From Scilla litardierei (taxonomy: Eukaryota; Streptophyta; Magnoliopsida; Asparagales; Asparagaceae), in assembly GCA_030789695.1 (NCBI GenBank), contig CM061142.1, forward strand, positions 565,989,281 through 566,053,280: a stretch of 64,000 bases of DNA. The letters are read 5' to 3'. Under the pieces are notes generated by a model. The model had not been told where the DNA came from. It searched no databases and saw only the letters and a list, made by a program, of their open reading frames with translations. Below, in pieces: positions 19,650 to 44,000 of the stretch; the stretch's first letter is position 1, and the number at the start of each line of letters is the position of its first letter. The translations under genes and the position numbers were made by a program.

Positions 19650-20249
19650 CTCTTGGCTACTACTCCCCTCGTGCATTCAAATGCCACCCAACCAAAGACC
19701 TTTCAACAGGCCCTGCCTTGAAGCTCGGTCAGATATCTAAGTGACATTATTCACGCACATGCTCATATAATGACATCAAGTCGAAGGACCAGCTTGTCTA
19801 TCATCAATTAAGAGCTACTATTGACAGTTTGGTATGTGCATTCCAAGTAGCAGCTCTCATTGGATCATTCAGTGAACTCATTCTCCAATGAGCACATGTG
19901 TCTCGTCTCTGATTTTCCCAAATTAAACGATCATGCGAACATCGTCACCAACACTTGGTGAAGACAGTGTATGTCTATCTGATGCATCGATATCCTTTCT
20001 CGATGCATCTACGACTATAACAGTTTTAGACTTATGCTACAAATTGTCGAAACACTTCTTTATTATCATGATCCTCATCTTGATACATGTTCAACTTCGC
20101 ATTAAGTCTCAAGACTTTATCTAAGTATAAAAATGCAGACAAACATTTATTATACATACTTAGATAAATGATACCAAATGACATACTATTATTTTGAACA
20201 GGATGCCCCAATTACAAATAATTGGCCTCGAGACATACATTTCCTAACA
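19650..20249 (-). repeat. Copia LTR, antisense copy of the family at 148-1007
   Basis: The minus strand starts TGTTAGGAAATGTATG...CTCGAGG at 20249 and is similar to 148-745. Shared stretches include GAGACTTAATGC, AGACGAGACACATGTGCTCATTG and TTGAAAGGTCTTTGGTTGGGTG. This places the same LTR family at both ends of the left 20 kb in opposite orientation. Confidence 0.65.
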
Positions 20250-20489
20250 ATAACATCTCTTCTTTATCCAAAAAATGAAACTTCCTACCTTTATCCAAAA
20301 GAGAAACCTACTGCCTTTTATCTAGAGGCAAGACCTCCTTGCCTTCATCCAAAGGAGAAACCTCACGACATTATCCTAATGCAAAACCTTCTATCTTTAT
20401 CCAAAGGTGACGTATGTTCTTACCTCTATTTGCCTGCATGCTTTGCTTTTTAGGCACTCCATTGCAATCTACAATCTTTACTTCACTTT
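20250..20489. repeat. Short imperfect tandem repeat (TTTATCCAAAGGAGAAACC)
   Basis: TTTATCCAAAAAATGAAACTT, TTTATCCAAAAGAGAAACCT, TTCATCCAAAGGAGAAACCT and TTTATCCAAAGGTGACG follow one another at about 30-60 base spacing. On the minus strand these are purine-rich and lie just upstream of the Copia LTR start, so they may be repeated polypurine-like tracts. The last 95 bases (from about 20395) recur at 22990-23105. Confidence 0.5.
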
Positions 20490-21417
20490 TGTTATCATGA
20501 TCTTGATCCTTCTAGTACTTTTGCATCTTATGAGACTATCATACTCATGCGACGATTAGGTTTTCGTAAATTCATTCATTATCACTGTGATCAAACATCT
20601 CTTTCTGCTCCATGTCACCTCCCTTAGAGTTGCTTCTTACAAGAGTGCTTACCACTTCTACATTGATATCTATTTTTGATAAGGATGCATAACTAATCCT
20701 TCATTATAAACTAACAAACTTCTGATCAGGAGTCCTCCTATGTGTCAGCCATTACGGACCGAGATTTTGAATCTCTTAATCAACACATCACTTTCCCACA
20801 AATGGCACCAACTCTTGCAGTACTATATATCCAAAGATACACGTTATGTTAATACTGAGTTTTAGCTGTGTGGGAACTGTTGATAAAAACAACAACAGGA
20901 ACAACGGTACCTTTGCATAGACAGTGTCGAATCTCCTTGGTTGATGGATGCCTCGACTGCACTCTTTCATTCATTGATATGCACACCACAGATATACAAT
21001 GGCTATGAGGAGCTCGACATGCTTTCTGACCTAAATCACACCAACGCTCAAGTCACAGTTAAGTTGTCAATCATCAAAGTAATATAATACTTGCATGATT
21101 TTGAAACATCATAATTAATCATACGAATCATACCGACTTATATAACTAAACTTTAGGAATATTCTTGTAATCGCAAAATAAACCTTTGCCACCTTTGCAT
21201 TTCATGTTCCTAGTGGAACTCTTGTTTTTGGTAAGTCGGCACCATCCTCGATGGGCTAGCTTCGGTCTAAACAAGCCCGAATCTTCTTGTCTAGGCCACA
21301 CCCCCTAGAGCATATTTTTACGTTAGGCCTTCACTCGCAAGTTAGGCCTTCAGTCGCGATCTAATCGTGTACATCCTATCTTGGGATAAAGTCCATACAA
21401 AACATGCCAATGCATCC
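20490..21417. other. No gene recognised
   Basis: AT-rich text with no domain. It contains two near-adjacent copies of GTTAGGCCTTCA(C/G)TCGC near 21330-21360. It probably belongs to a decayed retroelement interior. Confidence 0.4.
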
Positions 21418-22315
21418 TGATACGACTATTTTGGAGAAGCCCAAGAACAAGAGGCCCACGAGTGGGATTTGGCCCAACCGACGAGGCCCACGAAAAGACT
21501 CGGAGTCAGACCCGCCGCGACCCGGCATAATCGCGATTAGCCCATGCTCGCAGGAGATAACCGTTCCCCTAAAAGCGTGGGACCTTAATGACCATTAAGG
21601 GGCCCATTAATCGACTCCCCTATGACGCACGCCGGTGCCTCTATGGATGCGGATCACGGGGGCGTGAGTGGAGAGCAGTCAGGGGACGTGGATTGGGGGC
21701 AATCGTGGGCCAAACCCTATAAAGGGACTACAGAGGCAACCGAGGATGGGACCGGAGCCCCGATATCGACAATGGAGGTAGATCTTGCTTTTCGCCATTA
21801 TATCCCCTCCCTTAGCTCGGTCTGAGGATACATGTGTCGGCCTCCTTTCGAGCCGTACCGATCCCACCGAGCATCATTCAGATCCGTTCGGACTTAGACA
21901 TCGGAGGGGACTTGGTCGGAACCAAGGTCCGGCCCCCTGACGAGTTTATTCGTATGTCCAGGAAGAAGCAGAGCCAAGGCATCGAGGCTACCCCTCAGCA
22001 TGGAACAAGCCCGCTCGCCATTAGCGAGCACCGACTGAGACCGAGTGATAATCAGGACGCCAAGGCTACCCCTCGGCACTTGATTGACCGAGGCCGAGCA
22101 TTTACCTAGGTGCCGAGGCTACCCCTCTGCACCCCGTTGACTGAGACCCTCAACCATCCAAGTGACCCACTTCCCGAGCCAAAGAGGGGCACCGCACGTC
22201 CGCCGTCGAGAATACATACGTGCGTAAGAACCGATGGATCCCAACCGACCCCTTGACCACGTTGATCGCTAAGTCGTCGGTCAACGATTCTGTGGTGAGA
22301 AAACACCCGTAAACA
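21418..22315 (+). repeat. LTR-B (Gypsy) 5' LTR
   Basis: It ends GTGAGAAAACACCCGTAAACA at 22315, followed at once by a primer-binding site. A TATA box CCCTATAAAGGG is at 21716-21727. The start at TGATACGACT is inferred from the TG rule. The last part is repeated antisense at 9092-9440. Confidence 0.65.
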
Positions 22316-22316
22316 T

Positions 22317-22329
22317 CTGGTGCCGTCTG
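22317..22329 (+). other. Primer-binding site TGGTGCCGTCTG
   Basis: TGGTGCCGTCTGT begins one base after the LTR end. It resembles the TGGCGCCGTCTGTGGG site common in non-chromovirus plant Gypsy elements. It confirms the plus orientation of the element. Confidence 0.7.
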
Positions 22330-22883
22330 TAGAAACCGAACAAGCCCACGTCAAACCACCAAAATGGAACAAGTCTGCAACGGCTCGGGGCACATACCCC
22401 CTCATCCATGAGGAGGGTGATTACATACCTCCCGAGAACCAGTACAGCCACACCACCGAGGGGACAAGCGACTCCCGATCGGTCACCCAAGAGCAGCTCC
22501 GTCTCTTTGCCCAGGAAACCAACGCCAACCTCTAGACGTTGGTCGCCACGATTCAACAGCTCATCGGCAACCCGTCCATCCAGGGAGATGGGACGGCAGG
22601 GGCCCACCAGCGGGGAGGGGACCGCCAGCCTATACGATCCGCCGTGGTCACTGACCACGGGGACGGAGCAACCAACCCGGAACGGCGATTTACCATTTCG
22701 GGCTTCGTCCCAGTGCAGTCCCCCACTCCCACCTCGCCTCGCAAGGGAGACGGGGTGGGCCCCGAGCATGCTGAAGGAGAATCGGTTACCGCTTCGTCTC
22801 GGCAACCAGGCTCGACGTATCGGCGACCGACCGAACGCCGAGCCTCGGGGGACCGACCCCGCCGGAGTGAAAGTCCCCGATGA
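22320..22883 (+). pseudogene. Gag N-terminal remnant of the LTR-B Gypsy element
   Basis: One frame runs from just after the primer site to 22883 and is interrupted once, by TAG at 22533-22535. It reads YIPPENQYSHTTEG, VTQEQLRLFAQETNANL, stop, then TLVATIQQLIGNPSIQG and a Pro/Arg/Gly-rich tail. A short acidic or helical start followed by a low-complexity linker is usual for Gypsy gag. Capsid and nucleocapsid are missing: the element ends near 22985 in unrelated sequence. No pol is present. Confidence 0.55.
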
Positions 22884-23236
22884 GGAAGGCTGAATAAACG
22901 GGAGTATCGGAGAGAGAAGATGAACGCCCGCCGATCAACTCCCGCCCCCAGCTCAGCAGGGACTCGAGCGAGCCCCCGGCTATCGGGAGTATCCAAAGGT
23001 GACATATCTCACCTTTATTTAAAGACGAAATGTTCTTACCTCTATTTGCCTGCATGCTTTGCTTTTTAGGCACTCCATTGCAATCCACAATCTTTACTTC
23101 ACTATTTGATATTGGTAGGGTGGCAATGGAGTCCATTAAACCACTAATCTAACTTAAGCCCGATTCAAGAATTTGGTTTCAGATATAACTTTAGATCCAT
23201 TAAACAATTGAGTAACATTTTGATTTAAAATTCATG
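22884..23236. repeat. Element end and duplicated segment
   Basis: From about 22990 to 23105 the sequence repeats 20395-20490 (CTCTATTTGCCTGCATGCTTTGCTTTTTAGGCACTCC), with a 20-25 base difference near the start. The rest is AT-rich and non-coding. Confidence 0.6.
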
Positions 23237-23352
23237 TTTGAAAGTTGAGTCTAGATATATTTATTTCCAAACCCTTGATTATCTAATCCGAATTTTTGAA
23301 AGTTGAGTCTAGATATATTTATTTCCAAACCCTTGATTATCTAATCCGAATT
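23237..23352. repeat. 58 bp perfect tandem duplication
   Basis: The unit starting TTTGAAAGTTGAGTCTAG occurs at 23237-23294 and again at 23295-23352, differing only at the very end. It is a simple recent duplication. Confidence 0.9.
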
Positions 23353-23526
23353 TTTGAAGAAGTGCAATTAAGATAACAACGCATTAGAATCCAAGTAGTT
23401 ATGAGATTACCATAAGACTTGCGATGAGTATATATCAAAGCTTCGTTTTTTATTTGCTATTGCTTTCAGAAATTTTATTACTTATGTAAATACAAACTTT
23501 AGACTTTTAATTAGTAAAAATATTTT

Positions 23527-24213
23527 GGGTTTTTTTAAGATATATGTCCCCTCAAAAATGAGTTATTTTAAAAGAGTGCCCTAAATAATAGCTTTTACCA
23601 TTTGGGCCCCTAATTTAACTAAATCACTACAAAAGAGTCCATAATCTTTTAAAACCCCCATTTTGCCTCTCCACATCTCCTTACTCCTCTGATGGGCTGC
23701 GCACGCGACGGGCTTTGCCGGAGAAGAGGGGGGCTCGCCGGAGAAGGGGGGGCAGCCGCCTCATTCGCTTGAGAAGGGGGGCGGCCCCCTCTTTTCCTGC
23801 GAAGGGGGCGGCCCCCCACGAAGGGGGGCGGCCCCATCTTCTCCGGTGAAGGGGGCGGCTGGCTCCCTCTTCTCCGGCGAAAGGGGCGGCAGCCTCCTCT
23901 TTTCACAGGCGAAAAGGGGGTTGTCGCCCCCCTTTGCCGGAGAAGAGTGGGGCAGCCGCCCCCAGCAGTGAAAAGAGGGTGCTGCCGCCCCCTTCTCCGG
24001 CGAGCCCATCCTCTTCTCCGGCAAAGCCCGCAGCGCGTGTAGCCCATCGGAGGAGGAAAGAGAGGTGGATGGGCAAAATGAGGGTTTTTAAAAATTAGGG
24101 ACTCTTTTGTAGTAATTTAGTTAAATTAGGGGACCAAATGGTAAAAATTATTATTTGAGGGTCTCTTTTAAAATAACATATTTTTTCAACGAGATATATC
24201 TAAAAAAACACAC
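23527..24213. mobile_element. Foldback (long-TIR) Mutator-like element, 687 bp
   Basis: It is flanked by the 9 bp direct repeat AAATATTTT (23518-23526 and 24214-24222). The arms are inverted repeats of about 200 bases. The left arm includes TTACCATTTGGGCCCCTAATTTAACTAAATCACTACAAAAGAGTCC; the right arm is its near reverse complement. The core (23690-24040) is GC-rich, built of CTTCTCCGGCGAAAGGGGG-like repeats, and itself partly palindromic. No transposase is encoded, and the open frames over the core are compositional. A 9 bp duplication with long TIRs is the hallmark of MULEs. It lies about 450 bp upstream of the CUE gene start codon. Confidence 0.75.
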
Positions 24214-24417
24214 AAATATTTTTATTTGCATTCAAACGGAGGGGATAACGTTTGAACAGTCCAAAGCGAGTCCAAGCATTACCCCCGCTGTTTATACAAG
24301 TTAACGGCCAACGCATGCAAACCATCCAATAGAATTACGCACCCTCGCCGCGGACTTATCCACGTCATCAATACTCTATCGAGTCCCGAAATTAGGTCAC
24401 AATTCACTGTCCCGGAT

Positions 24418-24425
24418 TATAAATT
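24418..24425 (+). promoter_or_regulatory. Probable TATA box of the CUE-domain gene
   Basis: TATAAATT lies 243 bases before the ATG in otherwise mixed sequence. It is followed at about +35 by a CT-rich patch (CTTCTTTCCTCTTTTTGCC), typical of plant transcription starts. The 5' UTR would then be about 220 bases. This is inferred from position and composition. Confidence 0.5.
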
Positions 24426-24667
24426 ATTCATGTGTCTTAAATTAATCTAACATGTCCCTTCTTTCCTCTTTTTGCCTTGGTATTCGGTCGCAACGAATCC
24501 TCGAGATTTTGTGGATAGAAAAATCAGGGAAGCAAATTTTTTTGAAAAAATAGAAGATTTGGGGATCGAGAGGAAAGGGGCGATCGATCGATCGGTCAAA
24601 ACCCTAGCGGGGGGTTTTGCGGTGGCGACGAGCGATTAGGAGTTTTTAGTGTTTTGGCCTGGCTGCC

Positions 24668-24850
24668 ATGTCTGCAGGGATCTGCGGCAAGCGTCTCGGG
24701 TTAGAGGAAATCTTCGGATCTCCGTCGTCGGGGCCCGCAAAGAAACTGCGCTGCTGCGCCTCGACCATCCTGTCCACGGCCGATTTCGGGTTCGGATCCG
24801 AGGATAAGCTTTCCATCCTCATCCGCATGTTCCCCTCCATGGATCGGAAG
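24668..24850 (+). CDS. Exon 1 of the CUE-domain gene
   Basis: It codes residues 1-61, from ATG in GGCTGCCATGTCT to GATCGGAAG before the donor GTATAG. It ends in phase 0. It holds the conserved start MSAGICGKR and the CUE motif [11 protein letters not shown]. An open frame reads only two codons into the intron before a stop, so splicing is required. Confidence 0.9.
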
Positions 24851-25960
24851 GTATAGCAAAAAAAAACTTATTTTTACCCCTTCAAATTCGTTGTTTTGGT
24901 TAATTTAGTAAAAAAGTCATATAAAAGAATATTCCATTGCCCCCCCCCCCCCCCCCAACACACACACACACACAAATAAAACAAAATAAATTTTTTAGGA
25001 AAAGCATTTATCTGATTGTGAGATTGAAAAAAAGGTGATATTATCGTGAAATTGGAATATAATAGCTTCACAAACTCGCTATTGTATTAGTTGTCTGATA
25101 GAGACACAATCCATACTAGGTCTCCAGTAGCGGAGCCAGGAAATTTTCATTTAGGGGGCAAAATATAAGCTAATACAAAATAATTTCTACGTACAATAAA
25201 AACCAATAAGCAAAAGTATAATGTTAAATAGAACTCTAATAAAAACCAGTAACCTAAGAACTCTAAAACTATAAAAAATTCTTAAAATAGAAACTTAATT
25301 TACATTCAAATTCGCAACACATTAAGAAAAGTAACATATTCTACAGATGCATGTGTGCATGTATTAGAGAAAGCAACATATCATAAACATCAAAGATTAT
25401 ATTAGAACATGGGTAGGAATCGTGCATTGCCCGAGCAACATCCTAAGAGCATTTCGAATTTGCGACCTCAACCGTCATCTCTGTAATTGGATTGTTTTAA
25501 CCCTGATATTTTATGAACATATTTTGATATTAAAATAGAAATAAGACCCCAGGGTTTCATCAGGTTACCTGAAAAATTTCTAAGATTGCCTTGTTCTTTC
25601 ATCAGGTTACATGAAAAAATTTCTCAGGTAGCATGGATGGATGCAAAGAAAGTACAATTAATGCACAATCACAATTCCAGTACACCTCCCATGTGAAGTA
25701 ACAGGAGGACATCAAATCTCCAAGCCCTTCACTGGCCCCTTTTTCGTTCCCTTCTCGGTATCATCACACTTGCTTCAGGTTTTGTGCAAAAACTACACAA
25801 ATATTCATTCCGTAATAAGTTAGAGAGAGAAAGACATACAAAGATCCGGGCGATGGAGTGACAAGATTGCAGCTTCTCCCTTGTCCACAAGAACACGAAA
25901 CGGAGAGACACACACACGTATAACAATTTCAAGGTGAAGAAATCATGAGAATGCATGGAA

Positions 25961-26025
<65 letters not shown>

Positions 26026-29000
26026 GTAGGGGCGGAGGGGGTAACATGCAAAGGGGGGTCTGAGGGGGCAAAAAAACTTAGGGGGTAGTTGCCCCCTCAG
26101 GCCCCCCCCTTTGCCTCCGCCCATGGGTCTCTAACACTATCCTATTTGTTAGAGACACAGCCCATATTAGGCCTCTAACACTTGCATTGCTACCAGGCCC
26201 CTAACACTGGACTTACACTTCAATTGTTAAGTATTAGTTAGCATCCAACCCAAATCCAATTGGAAATAGGTGCATATGCCCTCTAATACTTAAACATTTC
26301 ATTTCTTTTGTACGTGTCCGATGTGGGACTAAGTGGGTGTTGGGGTGGAAATCCAAAACGCCTTGGGATCAATGCGGAAACCAGCCCTAATAAACTGATC
26401 AGGAATATAGAGCTAGCAAAAATCTAATCCCAATGACCCAACAAAATTCCCAAATGACCTTGCAATAGAAAGTAGCAAACGAATCACAGCAACAAATAAA
26501 TCCATCGCAGACCCAAAAGAATTTACCTTGGTTCGGTTGTAAACAACCTACGTCCAACAATCCAATCCGAGACGATTCCACTAGTATAGAGATCCAAACA
26601 ATTAGGGTTACAAAACGCTCCCTCACGCGTGAGTAATAACTTGTCAACGGAACAAGCCCTCACGAATCCACTTCAAGAGGAAGAAATCAATGGAAGAAGA
26701 ACAGAAGGAAAAACCAAATCTTTCTCTCAAGAACACAAACCCTAAAATTCTCTCCAATCTCTAATGAGGTAACAAGAGGCTTCTCAAAACTCAATGGAGG
26801 CTTAACCTAATCTAAAACAATAGATAGGTTTAAATACAAACCCAAAACAAAAGAGAAAAACCGCATCCAGCCGCTCCTACTCGCGCATGGGCCCGCGCCG
26901 ACTCGGTTCGAGTCGGCTGTCAGCTCGGCCTGCTCGGTCGAGCTGACATGCCCTAGGTGGAGTCGAGTCGACTCGGTCGAGTAGCCTAGTTACTCAGCCA
27001 GAGTGTCAGTATTCCTCTTCAAGTCGCATGCCCTTGGGCTGCTCGGGCAAACATCTCCTTCCAGCTGCTCGGTCAAGCAGCTTGCTGCTCGACCGAGTAG
27101 CCTTCTACTCGATCAAGCAGGAGTCACCCGAGCCAAAGGGAAAACTTCCACAAACTCTTTGCCTGCTCGGTCTGTCAGAGACTTCATGCAGCTCGACCGA
27201 GTAGCCTCCTACTCGACTGAGTTACCTGGAAAAACTGTACCATGCGATTTGAATCACGAAAAACAACACTCTACCTTGATTCAAATCTCATCACCAATGA
27301 CTCCTGCACCTCCACGATGAGCGCCATGACACTCTCTCTAGAATTATCATCGTCTCGGAAATCGCGCCCTCTGGCGCCGCCTAAGCCAACAAAGAAATCT
27401 GCTCCAAGCAAACCTGGAGCTTGACGGCAGAACTGGCTTGGTAAACATGTATGCGGGGTTCAAATCAGTTGGGATCTTCTGAGGCTCTATCTCCTTCTTC
27501 TCCAACTCAAGGAAGGAATCACGCACCTCAATATGCTTCGTCCTCGAACTGTATGCATGGTGCTTCGCCAGATGAATGACACTCTGGCTGTCACAATGCA
27601 TATGTGACGAACTCTGCGGCACCTCCAAATCTCTCAGCAGACTTCTCAAATACTTGGCCTCCTTCATAGCTTCCATCGTTGTAATCAACTCGGCCTATGT
27701 GATCGATAGCGCAACCACAGACTGTAAGATCGACCTCCACGATACCGTGGCAGTGCCCAAACTGAACACATACCCCGTGGTAGATCGCCGTCTGTATCTA
27801 TCACCTGCATAGTCGCTATCGCAGTAACCTGTCAGCACCTTTCCGTCTCCTCTCCCATAGAGGATCCCGACACTCGCTGTGCCTCGCAGATATCTCAGAA
27901 TCCACTTGACGACCTGCCAATGCTCCTTGCCAGGATCGGCCATATACCTGCTAACCACTCCCACGGTCTGTGCAATGTCTGGACGCGTGCAAACCATCGC
28001 ATACATCAAACTTCCCATTGCACTCGCATATGACACCTAAGACATGTAAGTCTTCTCCTCATCGGTGCTTGACGACTAACTCGCCGACAACTGAAAATGA
28101 GCTCCCAAAGGTGTTGTCACGGGCTTCGCACTATCCATCCCAAAATGGGTTAGTACCTTCTGAATATACCCCTTCTGTGACAATCTAAGCTCATGCTTCT
28201 TTCGATCTCGAATAATCTTCATTCCGAGAATCTTCTTTGCAGGCCCAAATCCTTTATGTCGAATTCTTGCCCCAGCTTCTCCTTCAGCTTCTTCACCTTC
28301 GACATGCTATTAGAAACAATTAGCATGTCTTCCACATAGAGCAACAAATAAATCTTCAAGCCATTCTCAAGTGTGCGAACATACACACATTGATCCTTGA
28401 TGCTCCTCTCGAAGCCTACTCCCATCATGAAGCTATCGAATCGTTTGTACCACTGTCTGGGTGACTGCTTCAACCCGTACAACGATTTCTTCAACCTGCA
28501 CACCAAAGTCTGTTTCCCTTCAACTCTGTGTTGAATATTGGACTCCCCGGATTTGGTTTTGGATGATGAGCAAACATAAATAATTCATGATCTAACAATT
28601 TGTGAGCGCAGTATTGGAGATCGTCGCCAATTTCACGTGAACATTCAAAGCGACATCTCAACACTTTCCAAAGCTCATTTTCATGCCTAAAGCTTCGTTG
28701 AAGCTCTTGCGACGCTTTGGAAGTAATGAAGATTCAATCGAAGCTCTCAAAGACCGTTTATTAAGGTTTTATTTATAGTCTTTTAGTTTCGATTGATAGA
28801 ATGTTAAGCCTTGAGTATATCTTACGTTTCTATCTTCATTACGCTCATTTCGTAGCTCTAGGATTCTTGCACAAGTTCACTCTAACTTCCTCGAAGCGTC
28901 GCGCTTCGATTCGGACTTTGTTGTGCATGTTAGTTGGTACAAGAACAAGTACTGACCGACTAGATGGTGATCTAGTCGGTCGGCCACTGTTCTTGGACCG

Positions 29001-32000
29001 ACTAGTTTCTGTCAGTTAATTCTTAGCTCTTTACTGTTTACAGTTAGTCGGTCTATGTTGACTCACCGACCGACTAGTTTGTGAACTAGTCGGTCAGTGA
29101 TGCTTCTTTGACCGACTAGTTGAGACTGACTGTTCACTCTAAAATTCTCCTAAGCTACTGTTTACCGTTAGTCGGTCTAAGAACGTTTGATGACCGACTA
29201 GTTGACAATCTAGTCGGTCAACTTTTGTTCTTGGACCGACTAAGTCAACTTGCCTTCAGACTATGTTGTTTTGCCTCTTAGTCGGTCTACGTTCATTGGA
29301 TGACCGACTAGTTGTGAAACTAGTCGGTCAGACAGTGTTCTTGGACCGACTAGTTTTCTAGGTCTGAAATTCTATCTCTTCTCAGATCTGCTCTTAGTCG
29401 GTCCATGCTTTGTGACTGACCGACTAGTTGATGAACTAGTCGGTCAGTGAGTGTTCTTTGACCGACTAGATCTCACAGATTTCTTTCCGTTGGAGATTGA
29501 CCTAACTTGTTTTTATGGGACCCTATAAATACGAACCTAGGTCATTTCTATCTTCAATAGAGCTGTCATTAGGAGATTCATTGAGTTCTAAAGAGATAGC
29601 TATTCTCCCTCAAATCTAAAGCTCTCTTCCTCACAAGAAACCCATTCTCTCTCATTTCTAGATCTAGAGAGAAGCTTGTTCTTGGTGAGCTCTTCAAGCT
29701 ATTGCTTGATTCAAGTTTCCAAATCTTCCCTAGGCACCCATTGCTGCTCATTTCCTTGGTGCTAGGGTTTGGTAACTTCATCTTCCTCAAATCCTTCATT
29801 CCACCTTTTGGGTAAGAAAAACTCAAGGTATAGGATTTTGTGGTAAGAGTATTTATTTCATATTAAACTCTTTTATATTGCTTATTGGCTCTCTCGGTTG
29901 TGAGAGAAGTTTGTGATCCCGGGTTGTGGGATTCACTTTGCCATTGCATGTATGATTTGATCTTGTGAAGGTTTTTCACAAGATATTCATAGTGGAAATC
30001 TTGAGTTAGGGTTTCTAACTCAAGTATCCGGAAGGGATCCGGGTGGTTGGGACGTAGGATCACCGGGAACAAGTCGGGGAGACTTGGGTGGATCCGAACC
30101 CATTAACTTCATTTGTTAGCATTGTTAATTTCATTGTTGTCATTCAATTTAAGCTTCCGCAAATTGACTTGGTAGTTGTGTGCAATTTAATTTGGAATAA
30201 TACGCCTTATTATTTTAAAGTACTATTCACCACCCCCCCTCTAGTACTTGTGCAGTAGCTGGTAGGGCATTACATTTGGTATCAGAGCCAGATACTCAGC
30301 TATGTCTGCCAACGACAACAAGACCGTGCCTCCACCTTCCAACTACGACACCTTCAGGAACCGTGAAGGAGCGTCATCGGTGATGGAAGGACGTTCCTCT
30401 ATAAGGCCTCCATTCTTCAACGGTACCAACTACGGGTACTGGAAATGTCGGATGGAAACCTTCCTCCGAAGTGCATCTTTATGGAGGACTACAATGAAGG
30501 AGTACAACGAGCCCGAAGAAGAAGATTTTGAGAAATGGACTACCGCGGAGGTCGCCGCGGAGGTAAGCAATGCCAAGGCAATGAACGCCTTGCAATGCGC
30601 ATTGGAGCCCGAGGATTTCAATAAGATATGCACATGTAAGAGTGCATATCAAATTTGGAACTCTCTCCTCATACTACATGAAGGGACGAGTCGGGTAAGA
30701 GACTCTAAACTCGTTGTCGTAACCAAAGATTACGAAATGTTTCACATGCAACAGGGCGAGAAGATGAAAGAATATTACGCTCGCTTCGTTGACATAATAA
30801 ACGAGTTAGAGGCCCTCGGCAAGATCTACACTCAAAAGGAGAAGTGCTTAAAGCTTATTGAAGGACTTCCCTCTTCTTGGGAAAAACGTACCTTCGCCAT
30901 CGAGGAAGGTAATGACATGAACAAATATACCGTAGTTCAACTAATGGGTACTTTGATGTCATACGAGGTACGCAAAGATAGCAAGGTGAAGCTACAAGAA
31001 AAGATGAAGTCATATTTGAACCTAGATGCGCCTAAGAAAAAGGCGATTGCATTCAAGGCGGCTTCATCCACATCTTCCGATGATGAAGACTCGGAAAACG
31101 AGTTGGACTTGGAGTCCATGGCACTCATGGCCAAGAAGTTCAACCGTTTCTTCCGGAAAGGTAACTTCAAGACCAAAGGTAAATTTGGTTCTTCTAACGC
31201 CTCTTCCTCTCCTTTGTGTTTCAAGTGCAATAAGCCAGGACACATGAAAGCGGAGTGTCCTCTCAACAAACAAAAGGAGAAGTGGAAGGCGCCAAAATTC
31301 GATAAGTCCAAGAAATACAAGAAAGGGTACAAGAAAGGACTTGTCGGAGCAACATTCACCGACTCCGAGGATTCCTCAAGCGGAGAGTCGGATGATGAGA
31401 AAGTGGAGCAAGCACATATGTGCTTCATGGCAAGAGAGGAGAACGATCAAGGATCCTCCTCTTCCGATGATAGTAATGACGAAAGCGATGAGGTAACGAT
31501 GGATGATCTTAGAAATGCTAACTCTCAACTTTGGTCAAAATACACTAAGTTAGTAAATAGATATACTAAGGTAAAAGATGACCTAGCTAGCATTCAAACA
31601 TTGCCTAAGAATATCATCACCAACAACGACACCGTTGTTGAAGAGTTAAGAAATGAGATTGTGAATCTCAAATCTAAACTTGAACATGTTAGCATTGAGG
31701 ATGCGGAAGAACATGAGATAGCGGATTTAACTTCTCAAAACTCGACTTTGAGTATTGAGAACGAGAATCTTAAATCTCGTGTTTATGTGCTCACATCGCA
31801 AATATCCGCTTTGGATACTTCTTTGCGTTCTCTCAAAGAGAAATATGAGGACACATTGGGCCGAATCAACAAATTCAACAAGGGTAAGGGCCATTTGGAT
31901 AATATCCTAAAAGATTTACTTCCGGCCAAACACCACATTGGCTTGGGGTATATGATGGGAAATTCATCCAAGTCGGTCACTACTTTTGTTAGGCCAACTT

Positions 32001-35000
32001 CCGAAGCCTCAACGAGTGGGAGCAAACACTCTATTGGTAGTTCATCTACCAATGGTGCTTCCACCTCGTCCACACCCTCTTTCGGAAAGAAACCCACTTT
32101 GGGTGGACCTCCAAAGAAGGGGCATGCCTACATGTACACTAATAACATGCCACGTAGGAACACACGTCCTACTCCACCGTCTCACACTTATGATGATTTT
32201 TATGCAACACATTCCCGGGCACGTGCACACCAAGTGAGACACCCTCACGCACGTGTTTCCACACATGCATATGTACACCCACCTCATCATATGAATAATT
32301 CTTTTCGTGCACCATTCCATCATGTCCCGTATGCCTATCCACAACATGCATCACGTAGAAATCAACGTAGCATGCATGCACCCAATAGGATGATGGCTCC
32401 CAAAATTTTCACTATTTGGAGCCCAAAGGACACAAGCATGGATGAAAAACAAATGTACATGAATGCTTATTTTTCGGATGTTGTGCATAGTAAGAATTAT
32501 GTGGGGAAGTCTAAGTCCACTTGGACTTGGCTTCCAAAGGTCTAATCCCTTGGACCCAATGACCTTGGGTACCATGATATGAAAGTGTCTATCTTTAGGT
32601 ACTCAAGGAAAAGAAAAAGAAAAGGAGCATCAAATTTAAATTTAGCTCCAAAGGGAATTGGATACTCGATAGCGGGTGCTCCAAACACATGACGGGTGAC
32701 GCTCGTTTGCTCTCCGGAGTGGTTCCCATTGCGAATGGAAACCGCGTCGTATTTGGAGGCAACGAGAGCGGAACCATCATAGGTGTTGGTAAAGTCGGTA
32801 ACCCTTCTAAACCATTAATTAGTGACGTTTATCTTGTTAGTGGTTTAAATCATAATCTTATTTCAATAAGTCAACTTTGTGACAAAGGTTACAAAGTTAG
32901 CTTTGCGAAAGGATTGTGTCACATTTTAAGAAAGGATAATGAAAAATTATTATTTTCCGGAACTCGTCGTAAAGACATCTATATTTTGGATCTTCCGAAG
33001 TCATATGAACAATGTCTCGTTGCCAACACAAGTGAACAACACTTATGGCATCGACGCTTTGGACATGTTAACTTTGGAACACTATATAAGCTTTCAAAAT
33101 TGAATTCTATTAAAGGTTTTCCGAAGCTTGTTTTTGAAAAGAAAAGTTTTTGTGATTGTTGTCAACGCGGCAAGCTTCCTAAATCTTCATTTAAACCTAA
33201 GAAAAGCATCTCTACTAAACGGCCACTAGAGCTATTACATCTAGATTTATTTGGGCCAACTAGAGTAGCTTCCTTAGGAAATGCAAGGTACGGACTTGTC
33301 ATCGTAGATGACTATTCAAGATTTACTTGGGTATTTTCATTGTGTAATAAAAATGAAGCTTTTGAAAACTTCACAATTTTTGTTAAGAAAGTACAAAATC
33401 TCTTAGGAACCACCATTGTCACTATTCGTAGTGATCATGGAGGTGAATTTGAGAATGAGTCTTTTGAGACATTTTGTAATGAAGTTGGTATTACTCACAC
33501 CTTCTCTTTCCCTCGTGCACCTCCTCAAAATGGTGTAGTTGAGAGAAAGAATAGGACGCTAGTGGAGTGTGCTCGCACCATGCTTGATGATAGCCAACTT
33601 GGCCATCAATTTTGGGCGGAAGCGGTACACACCGCTTGCTATGTGTTTAATAGAATACTTTTGAGGCCCGGCACTAAACAAACTTGTTATGAATTGTTGT
33701 TTGGTAGGTTGCCTCAAGTTAAACATTTTCGTGTTTTTGGTTCGAAATGTTTTATTAAGAACACATATGGTAGTTTGGACAAATTCGATCCGAGATCCGA
33801 TGAGGGGATTTTTGTTGGATATTCTACGCGTAGCAAAGCCTACCGGATATTCAACAAACGAACCTCAACGATCGAGGAATCGCTTCATGTCTCATTTAAT
33901 GAAGGATTTGTTCCAACTAGAATTTCAAATGATAATGATTCTATGGATGTTTTATGTGATTCATTTGAAAATTCTAAGTCTAATGATTCTATTGATTCTA
34001 TTGAGACTAACCCAACTAATGAAGTTGTTGAGAATGTTCCAAGTGATCAAGGTATTCCCAAACGACTTCATTCGGTTCGTGACCATCCCCATGAGCAAGT
34101 CATTGGCAATATCTATGATAGTGTCAAGACGAGATCCCAAGTTCACCGCTTCGCAAATTGTGCCTTTGCCTCATCGATAGAGCCAAAGAATATTAATGAA
34201 GCATGCGAAGATAGCGCTTGGATCTTAGCCATGGAGGAGGAGCTCATTCAATTCGAGAGGAATGAAGTTTGGGAGCTTGTTCCATTGCCATCGAAGAACC
34301 ACACCGTCATAGGGACAAAGTGGATCTTCAAGAACAAAACCGACGAAAACCAAGTCGTCGTCCGGAACAAAGCTCGGTTAGTAGCTCAAGGCTATCGTCA
34401 AGAGGAAGGTATCGATTTCGAAGAATCTTTCGCTCCGGTAGCTAGATTAGAATCAATTAGATTACTTTTGTCTTTTGCATGCCATAAGAATTTTAAATTA
34501 TTTCAAATGGATGTTAAAAGTGCATTTTTAAACGGAGATGTCGTTGAGGAAGTTTACGTTTCTCAACCTCCGGGCTTCGTAAATGAAAAATTTCCAAATC
34601 ACGTTTTTAAACTAAAGAAAGCTCTTTATGGTTTGAGACAAGCTCCTCGAGCTTGGTATGATCGCCTAAAGAATTTTCTTTTGGATTTGAATTTTAAAAT
34701 GGGCGAAGCCGATTCAACACTTTTTATTAAGCATGCGAATAATGATATTTTATTAGTTCAAATTTATGTTGATGATATCATTTTCGGTGCTACTAACTTC
34801 GCTCTTTGCGAAGAGTTTTCTAATGTGATGAAGGAACAATTTGAGATGAGCCACATGGGCGAACTCAAATATTTCTTAGGTCTCCAAATTCGCCAAATGA
34901 ACGATGCAATCTTCATCCACCAAACGAAGTACACGGTGGAGTTGCTAAAGCGATTTGGAATGGAGAATGCCTCCGGGAAAAAGACTCCAATGAGCACGAC

Positions 35001-38000
35001 TACGCATCTTGACAAGGATACGGGCGGTAAGGATGTAGACATTCGTCTATATCGAGGTATGATAGGTAGTTTGCTGTATCTTACCGCAAGTAGGCCCGAT
35101 ATTATGTTTGCCGTATGTATATGTGCTCGTTATCAGTCTCAACCTAAGGAGTCTCACTTAGTAGCGGTAAAGCGTATTTTTCGCTATCTAAGTTACACAT
35201 TAGATTTTGGATTACTTTATCCGAGATCTAGCACATATGAGTTAGTCTCATATAGTGACGCTGATTATGCGGGATGCAAATCCGACAGGAAAAGTACTAG
35301 TGGCACTTGCCATTTTATAGGAAATTCTCTTGTCTCTTGGTTTTCCAAGAAGCAAAATTCCGTATCACTTTCAACCACCGAGGCGGAATATATTGCCGCC
35401 GGTGCCGCGTGTGCTCAAGTTCTTTGGATGAGACACACACTTAAAGACTTTGGTATAAATTGTGATACTTGCCCTATCATGGTTGACAACCAAAGTGCAA
35501 TATGTCTTTCCAAGAACCCGGTACATCATTCCCGTTCGAAACACATAGATGTCCGACACCACTTTTTAGATGATCATGTTGCTAAAAAGGACATCATTCT
35601 AGGGTACGTTGAAACCCAAAAGCAAATCGCCGATATTTTCACGAAACCCCTAAAGGAGGACTCCTTTGTGCGGTTGCGTCGAGAATTGGGGATTATGGGT
35701 GAATCCGAGATATAGGATTCATGTTTCATTCAATAATTTTGCATGCTATTATTTTTGGCAATATCTCATTCATGCTAGAATTATTGGATTTTTCGGGAAT
35801 TTTATGTGATATCTTGATTTTTCGTTCGATTTGTGCGTAATCGTCAAATTTCTGTTTTTCGATGATTAATGGGGTAGTTTCGATGTTTATTGAGAGTTTT
35901 GAGATTTATCGTCCAAGCGTATTATGGAGAGAACTTGATTTTCAAGTTTTTGACTCTTTAGTCGGTTCATGTTCAGTGACCGACCGACTAGATTGAGATC
36001 TAGTCGGTCAGTACTTGAACGCAGACCGACTAAATCTTGTCAGTAATTCTTGGATTCAGCCACTGTTTGCAACTAGTCGGTTCAAGCTCATTGACCGACC
36101 GACTAGATCGTGATCTAGTCGGTCAGTGCTTGAACTGTGACCGACTAGTTGTGCCAGGGGCTGTTTGGTCTTTTGCGAAATCGACCGACTTAAACTCAGT
36201 TTAGTCGATCGATTTTCATTCTAATCGATCGAAATCTCTTCTCTCTCCGCTCAAAACCCCGACCTCCCTCGAGACCCTTCGTCTTCCGGCCACTTTCTGA
36301 CCATTCCAGCCGTCGCCGTCCGCCGATCTCCGACCTAGGGTATCCTCTCTTCCTCCCTCTCCTATCTAGGGTTCGGTTTCAGCTCTAGGGTTAGGTTTTC
36401 CAGTTGATTTCATCTCCTAGGGTTTCGATTAGGGTTTTCTAATTTCGGCTAGGATCTCTTCTTTCCAATCTCGTGTGTCGTGTTGTGCCGAGACTATGGC
36501 AAGAACACGCATTCCGATCACTCCCTCTAGCCCCTCTCCGATGACCGTTGATCCAATCTCTTCGGATCCCGAGCATCCAACCCTTCCGAAGCGTAGAGCC
36601 AAGACCACCCTTCCTTCGTCGTCTTCGCCTCCTCTCAAGAAGAAGAGGGCGACGACTGCTCAACCTAGAGGTCAACCGAAACCCAAACCCAAGCCTAAGC
36701 CCAAGGCCAAAATTCTTGCTTCTCAATCTTCGTTCCATACTCCTACCGATTCCGATACGGAGTATAACCCCGAGACCGAGACTCATAGGGAACCCACTCC
36801 TCCTATTCATCCCGAGTCTAGCACCCACCCTCGTACGTCTACCCGTAAGCCTAAGGGAAAGGGTCCGATGCCGGTGGGCGGTGTCGATATTTCCTTATGT
36901 CGCGATGACCCTTTGTGTCTCGCGGCGTATAACCGTATCGAACATTGCCCGCTGCTTCTGGAGCATTTCGTCCAGTTTAGCGACTTCATAGGGTTAGCTG
37001 ATCTTCTGTCGTCGTCGGGTCTTCTCGATTACCTTCGATATGACCCGAAGGCGAATCCTCACCCCTACCCTAGATTAGTGAAGCTTTTCTATGCTAATAG
37101 GATCCGGGCTCAGTACGATCAGACCCACTCTGTTGAGACGCCCGTTTTGGGGACTCCTATAGTCCTCACTGCGGAAATCTTAGGAGAGATTTTGGGTATC
37201 TCTTCGTCTGGCCTTCTTCCTTCTGATATCTCGGTAGATGATATTTCTTCTCTTGATCAGACCATCCTTTCAGAGATTTTCCATCAGATTCCTCCTGCCA
37301 TGATTGGCGTGCCATCTAAATCTTTCAAGCCAAATGCATGGGTCCTAAATCTGATTCTGAAGTCGTGCTTGCTTCCCAAGTACGGCTCCTCTTCTTTACC
37401 ATCCCAGCCATTTTTGAAGCTTATCTATGCGATCTTCATGGGGAGCTCGATTAATTGGGCTCGAATTATACTCGATAAGATTGACTCTTTCGAGTGTATT
37501 CGAAAGTCCAATAAATCGGCTCATATCCCATTTCCTTGCATGTTGACCCTCGTGTTTCGTCATTTTCGTGTCACATTGCCTCGTGACGATGAGCGTCCCC
37601 TTGGTCCTCCCCTGAATGCGACGGCCGTCAAGAAATCTCTTGCGGCGCTTCGTCACGTTCAGAGGACGACACCTTCTGCGTCTGTCCCTGCCTCTGCCAG
37701 TGCCTCTGCTACTCCCGTTGCCACCCTTGATGATGTCCTACGGATACTTCGTCGTCACGAGTCCCGCTTGGCTCGTACCGAGGAGGTAGTCTGCCGTATG
37801 GCTCGTCGGATGGGTGTTGAGCTTCCTCCTTCCGTGTCTGAGGATGAGGAGTTTGATGAGATGGCTGAGGAGGACATTGAGGAGCTCTGTCGTGCTTCGA
37901 CTCGTGCCCCCGAGGGCACTTCTGCTGGTACTGCTGCTGCTGGTACTTCCACTTCTGCTCCTGGAGTTGCCACCTCTTCCGGTGTTCCAGAGCCATCTGC

Positions 38001-41000
38001 TGCTGACCCAGTTTCCGAGCCTGCTCATGTATCTGCTGCTGCTGCTTCTGTCGAGACTCATGCTGCTGTTGAGCCTGTTGCTGAGATCTCGACTCCTGCC
38101 CCGTCGATTCCATCTGTTGAGACACCTCTTCTCCCTGCAGAGCCTGAGTCCACTCCGTCGACTGGACCCACGGACGCTGCAGATCCAGCCTCCTCCTCGT
38201 GATCGTTGTTCCGAGGACTCTCCATATACGCTTTGGATGATATATTCTAGTGAGAGTGTCTTGTGTTAGGATGGGGTTGAGAGATGCTTTGATGTATTTT
38301 TTTTGTGCTTTCTGGTTGTCGGTGTTGGATTTTATGATGATGATGATGTATTTCTTTTTGATGATATGTAGCGCTTGATATTATGTATCTCATATATTCG
38401 ATGTGATATTTTTTGGATGTACTCATGTTGTCTATATATATATATATATGTTCATCATCGTTCACTTTATCTTTTATTCATCGTGCAAATTTTAATATTC
38501 GTTGAATATATTTGAAATGTGATATCGAATCGACGCATAAAAAGTTGGTTAAATGGATTTAAATTCTGTAATTTTATAGAATTGTTCTCCGTGCACAAAA
38601 TTAACCAAGAAAATTGAATATTGAAGAGTATGTTTCTTTATTCAAGAAATGAATAATGATTTGGTGTTTTTGATGATTTTGATTTTTTTTATAATGGAAA
38701 ATTTGGCACACCTTGTTTTGATTTCCACAATTTTTCCCTTGGTGTCAAGTTGGTCCATTGCCTTTGTCTACGACTCCCGATGTTGGATTTTACATTTCCT
38801 AATTGTTGTCGTTGTATGCCCCCCATTTTTGGGATACTGCCAAAGGGGGAGAGATAATGATAATAAATAGCGCAAATAAAAATTTAACTCAATTTCCAAG
38901 AATCTAGTTTGATATGCTAGATTCAGGGGGAGTTAAGATACATATAAGGATTTTCAAAATCCGATATTTCAAAAATCAATTCACTTTATTTATCTTACTA
39001 GTCTGCTTGATGCAATTCATTTATATTCATTTTGGAATTAACGTGTCATCAATGCAGGGGGAGTAAGTATTTTACATTTGAATTATTATCTTTGATTATT
39101 ATTTATGTTGGTTTGTCATCACCAAAAAGGGGGAGAATGTTGAATATTGGACTCCCCGGATTTGGTTTTGGATGATGAGCAAACATAAATAATTCATGAT
39201 CTAACAATTTGTGAGCGCAGTATTGGAGATCGTCGCCAATTTCACGTGAACATTCAAAGCGACATCTCAACACTTTCCAAAGCTCATTTTCATGCCTAAA
39301 GCTTCGTTGAAGCTCTTGCGACGCTTTGGAAGTAATGAAGATTCAATCGAAGCTCTCAAAGACCGTTTATTAAGGTTTTATTTATAGTCTTTTAGTTTCG
39401 ATTGATAGAATGTTAAGCCTTGAGTATATCTTACGTTTCTATCTTCATTACGCTCATTTCGTAGCTCTAGGATTCTTGCACAAGTTCACTCTAACTTCCT
39501 CGAAGCGTCGCGCTTCGATTCGGACTTTGTTGTGCATGTTAGTTGGTACAAGAACAAGTACTGACCGACTAGATGGTGATCTAGTCGGTCGGCCACTGTT
39601 CTTGGACCGACTAGTTTCTGTCAGTTAATTCTTAGCTCTTTACTGTTTACAGTTAGTCGGTCTATGTTGACTCACCGACCGACTAGTTTGTGAACTAGTC
39701 GGTCAGTGATGCTTCTTTGACCGACTAGTTGAGACTGACTGTTCACTCTAAAATTCTCCTAAGATACTGTTTACCGTTAGTCGGTCTAAGAACGTTTGAT
39801 GACCGACTAGTTGACAATCTAGTCGGTCAACTTTTGTTCTTGGACCGACTAAGTCAACTTGCCTTCAGACTATGTTGTTTTGCCTCTTAGTCGGTCTACG
39901 TTCATTGGATGACCGACTAGTTGTGAAACTAGTCGGTCAGACAGTGTTCTTGGACCGACTAGTTTTCTAGGTCTGAAATTCTATCTCTTCTCAGATCTGC
40001 TCTTAGTCGGTCCATGCTTTGTGACTGACCGACTAGTTGATGAACTAGTCGGTCAGTGAGTGTTCTTTGACCGACTAGATCTCACAGATTTCTTTCCGTT
40101 GGAGATTGACCTAACTTGTTTTTATGGGACCCTATAAATACGAACCTAGGTCATTTCTATCTTCAATAGAGCTGTCATTAGGAGATTCATTGAGTTCTAA
40201 AGAGATAGCTATTCTCCCTCAAATCTAAAGCTCTCTTCCTCACAAGAAACCCATTCTCTCTCATTTCTAGATCTAGAGAGAAGCTTGTTCTTGGTGAGCT
40301 CTTCAAGCTATTGCTTGATTCAAGTTTCCAAATCTTCCCTAGGCACCCATTGCTGCTCATTTCCTTGGTGCTAGGGTTTGGTAACTTCATCTTCCTCAAA
40401 TCCTTCATTCCACCTTTTGGGTAAGAAAAACTCAAGGTATAGGATTTTGTGGTAAGAGTATTTATTTCATATTAAACTCTTTTATATTGCTTATTGGCTC
40501 TCTCGGTTGTGAGAGAAGTTTGTGATCCCGGGTTGTGGGATTCACTTTGCCATTGCATGTATGATTTGATCTTGTGAAGGTTTTTCACAAGATATTCATA
40601 GTGGAAATCTTGAGTTAGGGTTTCTAACTCAAGTATCCGGAAGGGATCCGGGTGGTTGGGACGTAGGATCACCGGGAACAAGTCGGGGAGACTTGGGTGG
40701 ATCCGAACCCATTAACTTCATTTGTTAGCATTGTTAATTTCATTGTTGTCATTCAATTTAAGCTTCCGCAAATTGACTTGGTAGTTGTGTGCAATTTAAT
40801 TTGGAATAATACGCCTTATTATTTTAAAGTACTATTCACCCCCCCTCTAGTACTTGTGCAGTAGCTGGTAGGGCATTACACTCTGAACCCTTCAGGCTGC
40901 TGCATATAGATTTTCTCATTAATGTCTCCATGCAGAAAGTCGGTCTTTACATCGAGTTGCTCCAACTCCATGTCCATGCTAGCAACTAGCGTCAATAACA

Positions 41001-44000
41001 CACGAATGGACGTGTGTCGCACAACCGATGAGAATATCTCGTTGTAGTCTTCACCCTTCCGTTGTGCGAATCCCTTGGTAACCAACCTTGCCTTGTATCT
41101 GACATTGTTCCCATCTTGAGTTGAACCTTTTTTGACCTTGTATATCCACCGACAATCAATGACATGCTTCTCGCTAGGTAACGGCACCAAGTCCCAAGTG
41201 TCGTTCCGGTGAAGAGACTCCATCTCTTCCTCTATAGCTCCTTGTCATTGTGTCGCATCTTCAGAGATTACGGCTCCACCATATGTCGCTGGCTCCTCGT
41301 GCTCTAGATTGAGTGCATAAGACGCCATATCATCGAAAGAATAACCTGCATAATCCCATGCTCCAAATCTTTCCGGCGCTTTCTTCACCATTTTCGATCT
41401 CTGCGTTCCATCATCACCTGCATAGGTGTCAACACGTATCTGAGATGTACCGGGTGTCTGCACATGGTCCTTAGCATGGACCTCATCATCTCCCTCAATT
41501 AGAGCATCGACTATCAACTCTTTGTCTGGTCGCTGAGTGGGCTGGACCGGAAGATTAACTCTCTCCGGTGAAATCTCCTCTACGGACGTGTCATCTTTTG
41601 AGTGAGAATGCTCCTCCCTGAGTATTGCATCCTCATCAAAAGTGGCATGTCGGCTCACTATCGCTTTATGACCCTCTGGATCCCACAAACGATATCCCTT
41701 GACGCCGCGGCCATATCCAAGAAAGATACACTTTTTTGTTCTTGGATCCAACTTGTCGCCCCTCTCGTGCACGTATGCCGGGCAACCCACAGTGCGCAAG
41801 TACGAGTAATCTCCAGCTTCGTCACTCCACAGCTCCTCAGGGATCTTGTAGCCAATCGCTACTGAAGGAACTCTGTTCACAATGTGCACATCAGTCGAGA
41901 GTATCTCTCCCCAGAATTCATTCCCCAAACCGGCTGAGTGCCTCAAACACCGCACTCTCTCCAACAATGTCCGATTCATCTGTTCCACCACACCATTCGA
42001 CTGCGGATCACCGGGTGTGCTAAAGTGTCTGCGGATCCTATGGAGTTTGCAGAAATTCCTAAACTCTCTCGAGGTTAACTCACCTCCATTGTCAGATCTA
42101 TGCACCTTCACGTGCCTTCCGGTTTGCTTGTCCACCATGGTCTTCTACTCTCGAAACATATCAGAAGTCTGGTCCTTTGACTTCATTAAGTACATACAGA
42201 CTTTGCGAAAGTAGTCATCAATAAACAAGACATAATACTTAGCTCCTCCTCTTGACGGCTCTGGACACGGTCCCCACACATCTGCGTATACATAGTCACG
42301 TGGTCCTTTGCTAGTATGCTTCCCCGTGTTAAACTGCAGCTTTGTCTTCTTACCGTACACATAGGATTAGCAGAATTTTACACTCTCATTCGAGGCTTCA
42401 ATTAGTTTTCTTCATCAGAGTACATCAAGCGTTTTGTCATACAGATGACCCAAAAGATAATGCTATAACTTGGTTGTCTCTTCGGAAACTGCGCTCGTAG
42501 TGCTTACGTCTGCTTCACCTTCAACTGTGGTACCTTGAAGGGCATATAAGTTTTCAAACTTCTTTCCCTTCATTAGAACCATGGCTCCTTTCGAAACTCG
42601 AAGTTGGTCTTTTTCAAATACCGACTTACATCTGGCATTGTCCAACACGCCTATGGAGATCAGGCTCTTCCGCAAATCTGGGACATGCCTCACATCGGCA
42701 AATTTACGCATTATGCCGTCGTGCATCTTTATCCAAACGGTTCCAATACCCGCAGTTCTACACACTGCATTGTTCCCCATGAGGATTGATCCTCCATCTT
42801 GCTTGGAACGGTATGTCGCGAACCAACTCCTATGAGGAGTCATGATACGAGCATCCACTGTCCATGAGCCACGCCAAGTTGGCATCACCTGCAATCCCTG
42901 CAGCAAAAATCTCGGTATCTCTACCTTCATCATGGACTAGCTCACCATTAATCCCTAAAGATGCCGAACCGGAATCCTTCTCGGTTTTCTTTACTATCTT
43001 CCTATTCTTGATAGGACAACGATTCGAATAATGACCCTTCTTGTGGCAATTGTAGCATGTGATGTTCACAAACCTATACTGCGAGTGTCTCGACTTGGAG
43101 CGGTCATTATTCTTCTTGAAGCATCCTTTCCTTTCCTGTCGACCCCTCACATGCAATGCCTCCTCGCGGTTGCTCACATGATCTCTACCTTGAACCTTGC
43201 CACATAGTTGCTCTATGTGAAGCGCCGCCTTCACCTCTTCCACGGTGAGAGTAGTCCGGTTGTAAATCATCGACCGAACAAACTGATTATACTCTTCAGG
43301 CAATGAACACAATAAGATAACCGCTTGATGCTTATCTTCAATCTTCACATTCATACCACGCAACTCTAGCACAATCCTGTTCAACTCATCCATGTGATCC
43401 TTCACCGCTGAACCAAACTTCATCTTAAGAGTATACAACTGCTGAAGCAAATATAGGCGACTCGTGAATGATATCTTTATATATAGTCTCTCAAGCTTCT
43501 TCCACATATCAGATGTCGTAGCCTCATCCACGACTTCCCTCAGAACATTATCTGATAACGACAACTGAATCGCGTTGTACGCCTTCCTCTCCATCTCTGC
43601 CCTAGCGGATGCAGTCACCTTCTTATCGATATTTGAGACATCGAATACGATTTGGTAACACCCCGTCTGCATAAGAACATTCTTCACCTTCGTCTGCCAG
43701 ATCCGAAAATCATTCCTGCTGGTAAACTTTTCAATGTTCAAAGTTGCCAAAGACACCATCTTTCCTTCGCCATTAACTTCCTTTGCAATAAAAAACCATA
43801 AGCTCTGATATGACTTGTTGGGGGTGGAAATCCAAAACGTCTTGGGATCAATGCAGAAACCAACCCAAATAAACTGATCAGGAATATAAAGCTAGCAAAA
43901 ATCTAGTCCCAATGACCTAACAAAATTTCCAAATGACCTTGCAATAGAAAGTAGCAAACGAATCACAACAACAAATAAATCCATCGCACACAGAAGAGAA

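Follow-up and report, generated by a model that had tools for sequence, protein, structure and literature searches.

A palindromic repeat array with DRE-type cores upstream of the TATA box in an envelope-bearing Sirevirus of Scilla litardierei

In the genome of Scilla litardierei, a retrotransposon of the Sirevirus group carries many copies of ACCGAC in its long terminal repeat (LTR), and the question this locus raises is what so dense a cluster of one motif does there. The motif is the dehydration-responsive element (DRE) core bound by DREB/CBF factors, and the original prediction for this DNA read the cluster as an enhancer that could make the element responsive to cold or drought, with cruciforms or small-RNA hairpins as the alternative. 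The stretch analyzed here, referred to as the window, comprises 64,000 nucleotides (assembly GCA_030789695.1, contig CM061142.1, positions 565,989,281 to 566,053,280 of the forward strand). In our analysis, the cluster is best explained as an array of palindromic repeated motifs (RMs) in an envelope-bearing Sirevirus, the sites of which would be bound by a sequence-specific host factor and would work together as a multi-site enhancer. We give this explanation a probability of about 0.68.

The anatomy of the cluster proved to be as first described. The original prediction had counted about 20 ACCGAC or GTCGGT hexamers, where chance would give fewer than one, and had called for a count against shuffled sequence. 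There are exactly 20 between 28955 and 29466, while 1000 dinucleotide-preserving shuffles of 28954-29470 gave a mean of 0.34 and a maximum of 3; outside the element, the richest of 1008 windows of 517 bases holds 5. Across the whole window, the two strands together hold 79 copies of ACCGAC, compared with 16.7 expected from shuffles. Elsewhere in the element, the 3′ LTR has 20 hexamers (39564-40075), and a further 11 are clustered internally at 35961-36189. The five units of roughly 115 bp are also present, all on the + strand, at 28928-29007, 29042-29121, 29166-29245, 29276-29355, and 29392-29471, with steps of 114, 124, 110, and 116 between their starts. Each is a quartet of arms in alternating orientation (- + - +), which accounts for the two inverted pairs per unit, though the first arm of the first quartet (28928-28939) has decayed. 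The hexamers correspond to 19 intact arms plus one overlap, an extra ACCGAC at 29065 within ACCGACCGAC. The array was said to end about 50 bases before the TATA-box region CCCTATAAATACG (29521-29533, + strand, at about 57% of the LTR length), and 54 bases separate the two. A sigma-70 scan of this region, which is irrelevant to plants, was empty. One qualification applies to the count itself. GACCGA, CCGACT, and CGACTA occur 19 times each in the array, repeating as ACCGAC does, and since all the sites were copied from one repeat, they are less independent than the hexamer count suggests.

A second array of two quartets with the same geometry as those of the LTR lies before the env gene (35956-36150, + strand). 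It is followed by a degenerate further unit (36178-36232, + strand), which is left out of the totals of 28 arms and seven quartets and of the spacing measurements, whereas quartet 1 is counted with its decayed arm. In all seven quartets measured (five in the LTR and two internal), the arrangement of arms, linkers, and loop is exactly 12-14-12-4-12-14-12. The centers of the cores are 22, 20, and 22 bp apart within a quartet, or about two helical turns, and 46-60 bp apart between LTR quartets.

Letters and spacing are both conserved, but not everywhere. Mean identity across the seven quartets is 95.7% in the arms, 52.6% in the linkers, and 36.9% in the loops. Of the 28 arms, 27 (19 of the 20 in the LTR) keep an 8-bp site, ACCGACTA, intact, with a G before it in 25 and a G after it in 20, while bases 10-12 of the outer arms are variable. 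When LTR quartets 1 and 2 with their spacer are compared with the two internal quartets and theirs, differences fall at 5 of 80 arm positions, as opposed to 52 of 114 other positions (Fisher p = 4.5e-10). Within the quartets, no length change is found in 224 nt of linkers and loops, and the loop is 4 nt long in every one, whereas the five spacers between quartets have five lengths (34, 44, 30, 36, and 35); under equal rates, this contrast has a probability of about 0.007 by a rough Poisson estimate. Because arms and geometry were kept while linkers differ, we read this pattern as selection acting on the 8-bp site and its spacing. The comparison behind this reading is made within one element. 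Separately, three arms differ from GACCGACTA (28928-28939, 35956-35967, and 36071-36082), all of them first arms of quartets; read on the + strand, they hold three C-to-T changes and one C-to-A change, mostly tolerated by wobble pairing in + RNA and too few to interpret.

A class of features with this design has been described before. In the text of Bousios et al. (2010; PMC2829016), 13 of the 21 Sireviruses studied are reported to carry palindromic RMs, with at least eight copies per element and, in 12 of these 13, a CGG-CCG core. The motifs cluster in the upper LTR half, a short way ahead of a conserved TATA box, starting 200-400 bp into the LTR and extending over 300-500 bp, and env-bearing Sireviruses have further copies before env. 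The same text describes the clusters as a CpG island, states that such motifs are Sirevirus-specific, suggests stress factors for them from PLACE matches, and reports that no one factor was found that reads the arrays. The array analyzed here resembles these RMs in its palindrome with a CGG-CCG core (GACCGACTAG..CTAGTCGGTC), in its copy number (20 arms, 19 of them intact, in the five LTR quartets and eight before env), in its position at LTR offset 399-942, before a TATA box at 995 of 1746 bp, and in its second cluster ahead of the env start codon. This agreement in class, place, env association, and distance to the TATA box supports the RM-array explanation. At 543 bp, the array is slightly longer than the published range. 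It also differs from the 13 printed RMs in having its own sequence, in containing the DRE core, and in that the LTR cluster stays below the GC>50% rule for CpG islands: its CpG observed/expected ratio (o/e) is 0.94 at 44% GC, and no 200-bp window of the LTR has GC>50% and o/e>0.6, under settings that differ from those of the published CpGplot analysis. CpG o/e is higher in the LTR stretch before the array (28529-28949), at 1.31 with 39% GC, than in the array itself.

We therefore file the array under the known RM class, with a new RM sequence, as a putative enhancer-like module of the U3 part of the LTR. The feature class, its position, and the stress suggestion were already in print (PMC2829016), which the original prediction did not know. 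The new detail is the quartet of arms with its exact geometry; since it was set beside the published RMs by the text of that paper and not its figures, other RMs may share the arrangement. The literature found names no factor that reads Sirevirus RM arrays, with subscription papers mostly outside the search. Four 10-mers from the array were looked for in literature text, and among the matches listed there was no retrotransposon title, one match being on transgenic Helitrons; likewise, no paper containing ACCGACNA was among the matches listed. Two matches to the array among viral contigs were rejected as chance; both are lone stem-loops in the stretches read (about 300-350 bases each), and one has a terminator-like T-run. 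Comparable clusters have been described in other LTRs. The heat-responsive elements of ONSEN/COPIA78 are likewise clustered sites for one stress factor (PMC5059998), and the palindromes of maize Ji/Opie (CACCGGACNNNGTCCGGTG), as described in PMC10760457 and PMC5311732, are likewise clustered in the cis-region of a Sirevirus LTR, with strong predicted folding. The maize motif is a different one and the small-RNA evidence belongs to maize; the array here has 20 sites.

How might such an array work? From its place in U3, a short distance ahead of the TATA box, and from its repeat before env, it would offer each ACCGACTA site to a sequence-specific host factor. Given the regular distances between centers, the four sites of a quartet could all face the same side of the helix, and the whole array would enhance the LTR promoter through many sites, the second copy perhaps enhancing env. 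The best named candidate for the factor is a DREB2-type AP2/ERF protein. The SIRE identity, the U3 position before the TATA box, and the enhancer-like anatomy of the original prediction are all supported, and the way letters and spacing are kept argues for sequence-specific binding.

A narrower version of this explanation is the one originally proposed, a stress enhancer of the ONSEN kind bound by DREB/CBF proteins (DREB1/CBF for cold, DREB2 for drought and heat), which we regard as a tentative possibility. The 20 DRE cores in the LTR array are in its favor, and the flanking bases divide it in two. According to reviews, DREB1A/CBF3 prefers A/GCCGACNT and DREB2A prefers ACCGAC; ACCGACN(A/G/C), present in RD29B, has been tied to the DREB2A regulon (PMC3146422). 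Since all 20 ACCGAC belong to this last class, 19 of them as ACCGACTA, the array is compatible with a DREB2-type site. By contrast, the cold/CBF reading is disfavored because none of the 21 RCCGAC sites in the array carries the T that A/GCCGACNT requires. DRE-type cores in LTRs have precedents in MCIRE of alfalfa, for which PMC5059998 cites a CRT/DRE core, and in tomato Rider, the U3 of which contains a CBF site (PMC6762207). CBF/DREB consensus sites are also reported in most maize transposable elements linked to stress-responsive genes, ultraviolet stress excepted, and RMs have stress-factor matches in PLACE. However, the available text on MCIRE and Rider mentions no dense array such as the one found here, and Rider is drought-responsive but not cold-induced (PMC6762207). 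Against any DREB/CBF enhancer, conservation in the array runs two bases past the hexamer, ACCGAC is merely one of several equally repeated 6-mers, and the full DRE core occurs in none of the 13 RM consensuses printed in PMC2829016, that of Barbara ending in ACCGA with the next base unprinted. A link of the array to cold or drought is possible, with a DREB2-type site compatible and the cold part weakened.

For the broader reading, in which an unspecified host factor binds the conserved sites, several points weigh on the other side. The seven quartets come from one element and are non-independent, and because they were chosen for clear arms, with the degenerate unit omitted, there is a bias toward fixed spacing. 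The distances between quartets are out of helical phase, and because just two spacings are independent, the idea of a common helical face is suggestive only. Conversion could also keep the arms alike. Furthermore, pairing across the 36-pair palindrome of the quartet, at 83.7%, exceeds that of all six slid versions (15.5-40.1%), as does covariation (0.138 compared with 0.037-0.089), with the slid control known to be biased. RNAalifold predicts 27 pairs, four with retained two-sided change, and one column pair, 37/44, covaries (AU in three quartets, UA in three, unpaired in one). With only seven related units, the power to detect covariation is low.

These pairing results bear on the view that structure itself is selected, as RNA hairpins, as DNA cruciforms, or as a trigger of host small RNAs and silencing, which we consider unlikely. 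Predicted folding is certainly strong: compared with shuffles, RNA folding gives z -16.1 for the LTR array and z -9.1 for the internal array, and a single quartet folded as DNA gives z -8.6. The constant loop would suit a hairpin, and maize Sirevirus palindromes are reported to be hotspots of small RNAs (PMC5311732 and PMC10760457). However, any set of inverted copies of one site will fold stably in this way. When letters were shuffled, pairing was no lower (82.2%, with 85 of 500 shuffles reaching the observed value), and the covariation score was reached by 98 of 500. Linker pairs are often broken, in up to five of the seven quartets, and the variable bases 10-12 of the outer arms do not fit a selected stem. 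Triggering silencing would come at a cost for the element and alone would presumably not keep the arms. Pairing stays within the range of letter shuffles, so what is kept seems to be the letters and not the pairs, and the lack of covariation beyond shuffles favors sequence-specific binding, at low power. Hairpins and small RNAs are probably a by-product of the array, as the 3′ U3 should be transcribed. Given the strong predicted folding and the small RNAs of maize, the hairpin alternative of the original prediction keeps some probability. A non-functional repeat, produced by tandem and inverted duplication with conversion between arms, is very improbable, for although halves and quartets do resemble mutual duplicates (linker palindromy is 0.52 compared with 0.26 shuffled, a value reached by none of 2000 shuffles), conversion should homogenize arms together with adjoining linkers, which differ at about half of their positions while the arms do not, the contrast holds also between arrays 7 kb apart, and RMs of similar design occur in 13 of 21 Sireviruses (PMC2829016).

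The explanation by a host-bound enhancer would extend to env through the region that follows the internal array. Between the degenerate unit and the env ATG (36499) lies a CT-rich and CpG-rich stretch (36235-36498, + strand), a candidate internal env promoter or leader. It contains three CT runs and, within 72 bases (36366-36437), four CTAGGGTT/TAGGGTTT motifs; the whole window has 27 TAGGGTT/AACCCTA, these four included. TATA[AT]A[AT] is absent from the 348 bases between the internal array and the ATG, and most 200-bp windows in 36150-36950 have GC>50% and CpG o/e>0.6. CT runs, short motifs of this type, and CpG-rich GC stretches are often found in plant promoters and leaders that lack a TATA box. 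The features before env would fit a TATA-less internal promoter or leader, as a candidate and not as proof; the idea of an internal env promoter was proposed in PMC2829016. In its most elaborate form, the enhancer explanation would have a phased tetramer, with four ACCGACTA on one face bound cooperatively by a DREB2-class or other host factor, and the duplicated module driving a TATA-less env promoter, so that a single host signal would turn on the genome and the env transcript together. So specific a scheme seems rather improbable to us.

The element that carries the arrays is assigned, from its signature motifs and domains, to the envelope-bearing Sireviruses (Ty1/copia, Pseudoviridae). It spans 28529-40880, is flanked by the target-site duplication CTCTG (left copy 28524-28528, right copy 40881-40885, strand not assigned), and appears complete. 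By self-BLAST, its LTRs on the + strand are at 28529-30274 (5′, 1746 bp) and 39138-40880 (3′, 1743 bp), and they differ by one substitution (29155, in a spacer between quartets) and one 3-nt indel (30228-30230). The single substitution suggests an insertion age of about 20,000-40,000 years, at substitution rates that we assume. The 5′ LTR ends in TTACA, followed by the primer-binding junction TTTGGTATCAGAGC (30275-30288, + strand), which contains the Sirevirus primer-binding site TATCAGAGC and matches the consensus in PMC2829016. A copia-type gag and pol follow, both on the + strand. The gag open reading frame (ORF; 30302-32545, 747 amino acids) matches Pfam Retrotran_gag_2 (E 1.5e-27) and zf-CCHC, and two pieces of the pol ORF (32689-35715, 1008 amino acids) match rve (1.4e-13) and RVT_2 (1.6e-81). 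Between pol and the 3′ LTR, where Sireviruses have their envelope-like gene, lies an ORF of 567 amino acids from its ATG (36499-38202, + strand). Its match is to PF20167, a putative plant transposon protein (E 1.7e-16) and not an envelope model; it had no match in NCBIfam. In searches with scoring limited to about 8000 candidates sharing most words, its relatives were two Cephalotus proteins (28-30% identity), and those of gag were 28 proteins from several plants (24-37% identity) carrying copia-type gag domains. For the reverse transcriptase (RT) piece, none of five pattern matches in viral contigs was confirmed.

The 3′ end also carries Sirevirus signatures. Four polypurine tracts (PPTs), AGGGGGAG, lie at 38844-39135 on the + strand (starts 38844, 38925, 39056, and 39128), with the terminal one starting 10 bp before the 3′ LTR and the extra copies clustered after env. 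An inverted repeat surrounds the terminal PPT, its right arm lying about 28 bp into the LTR (TTTTTGGTGATGAC..ACATAAATAA versus TTTTGGATGATGAG..ACATAAATAA, judged by eye and unscored). A minor deviation is AA/TG in place of the Sirevirus attachment site AT/TG after the PPT, AT being reported there for 20 elements (PMC2829016). Near the 3′ end of the LTR, where Sireviruses carry a polyC-rich integrase signal, a CACCACCCCCCCTCTAG stretch at about 30228 is at most a candidate for it.

The Sirevirus is nested in an older copia element of about 6.1 kb on the - strand, with LTRs at 26338-27268 and 43816-44766 that are 90.8% identical, and with Pfam matches to gag and RT. Each of these LTRs has six CTCGRYCRAG sites (strands merged) before a TATA-like TATTTAAA, with a fold z of -6.1; there is no ACCGAC array in them. 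Palindromes of the CGGTC type are arrayed ahead of a TATA-like box here as well as in the Sirevirus LTR. No AGGGGGAG was found on the strand of the surrounding element, this being the sole Sirevirus signature checked besides the shared TATCAGAGC. If it is a classic copia, it would be an exception to the statement in PMC2829016 that RMs are Sirevirus-specific. Elsewhere in the window, a GACCG-rich cluster at 60720-61080 has CCGCACCGACCGA repeats and CTCGGTCAGACCGAG, downstream of TATATAAA at about 60605, and a 388-bp direct repeat (49969-50356 and 55552-55938, 99.2% identity) may be a further recent LTR pair. The stem counts obtained at 7601 and 8001 reflect an N run and were ignored.

Because a clean array design is found here in a recent, apparently complete insertion, the element is a good test case both for the host factor and for an env promoter of its own. 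The design is clean in that the 8-bp site is kept in all but one of the arms, the spacing is exact, and a second array is present in the same element. If DREB2-type factors do bind the array, drought or heat could activate this family of elements.

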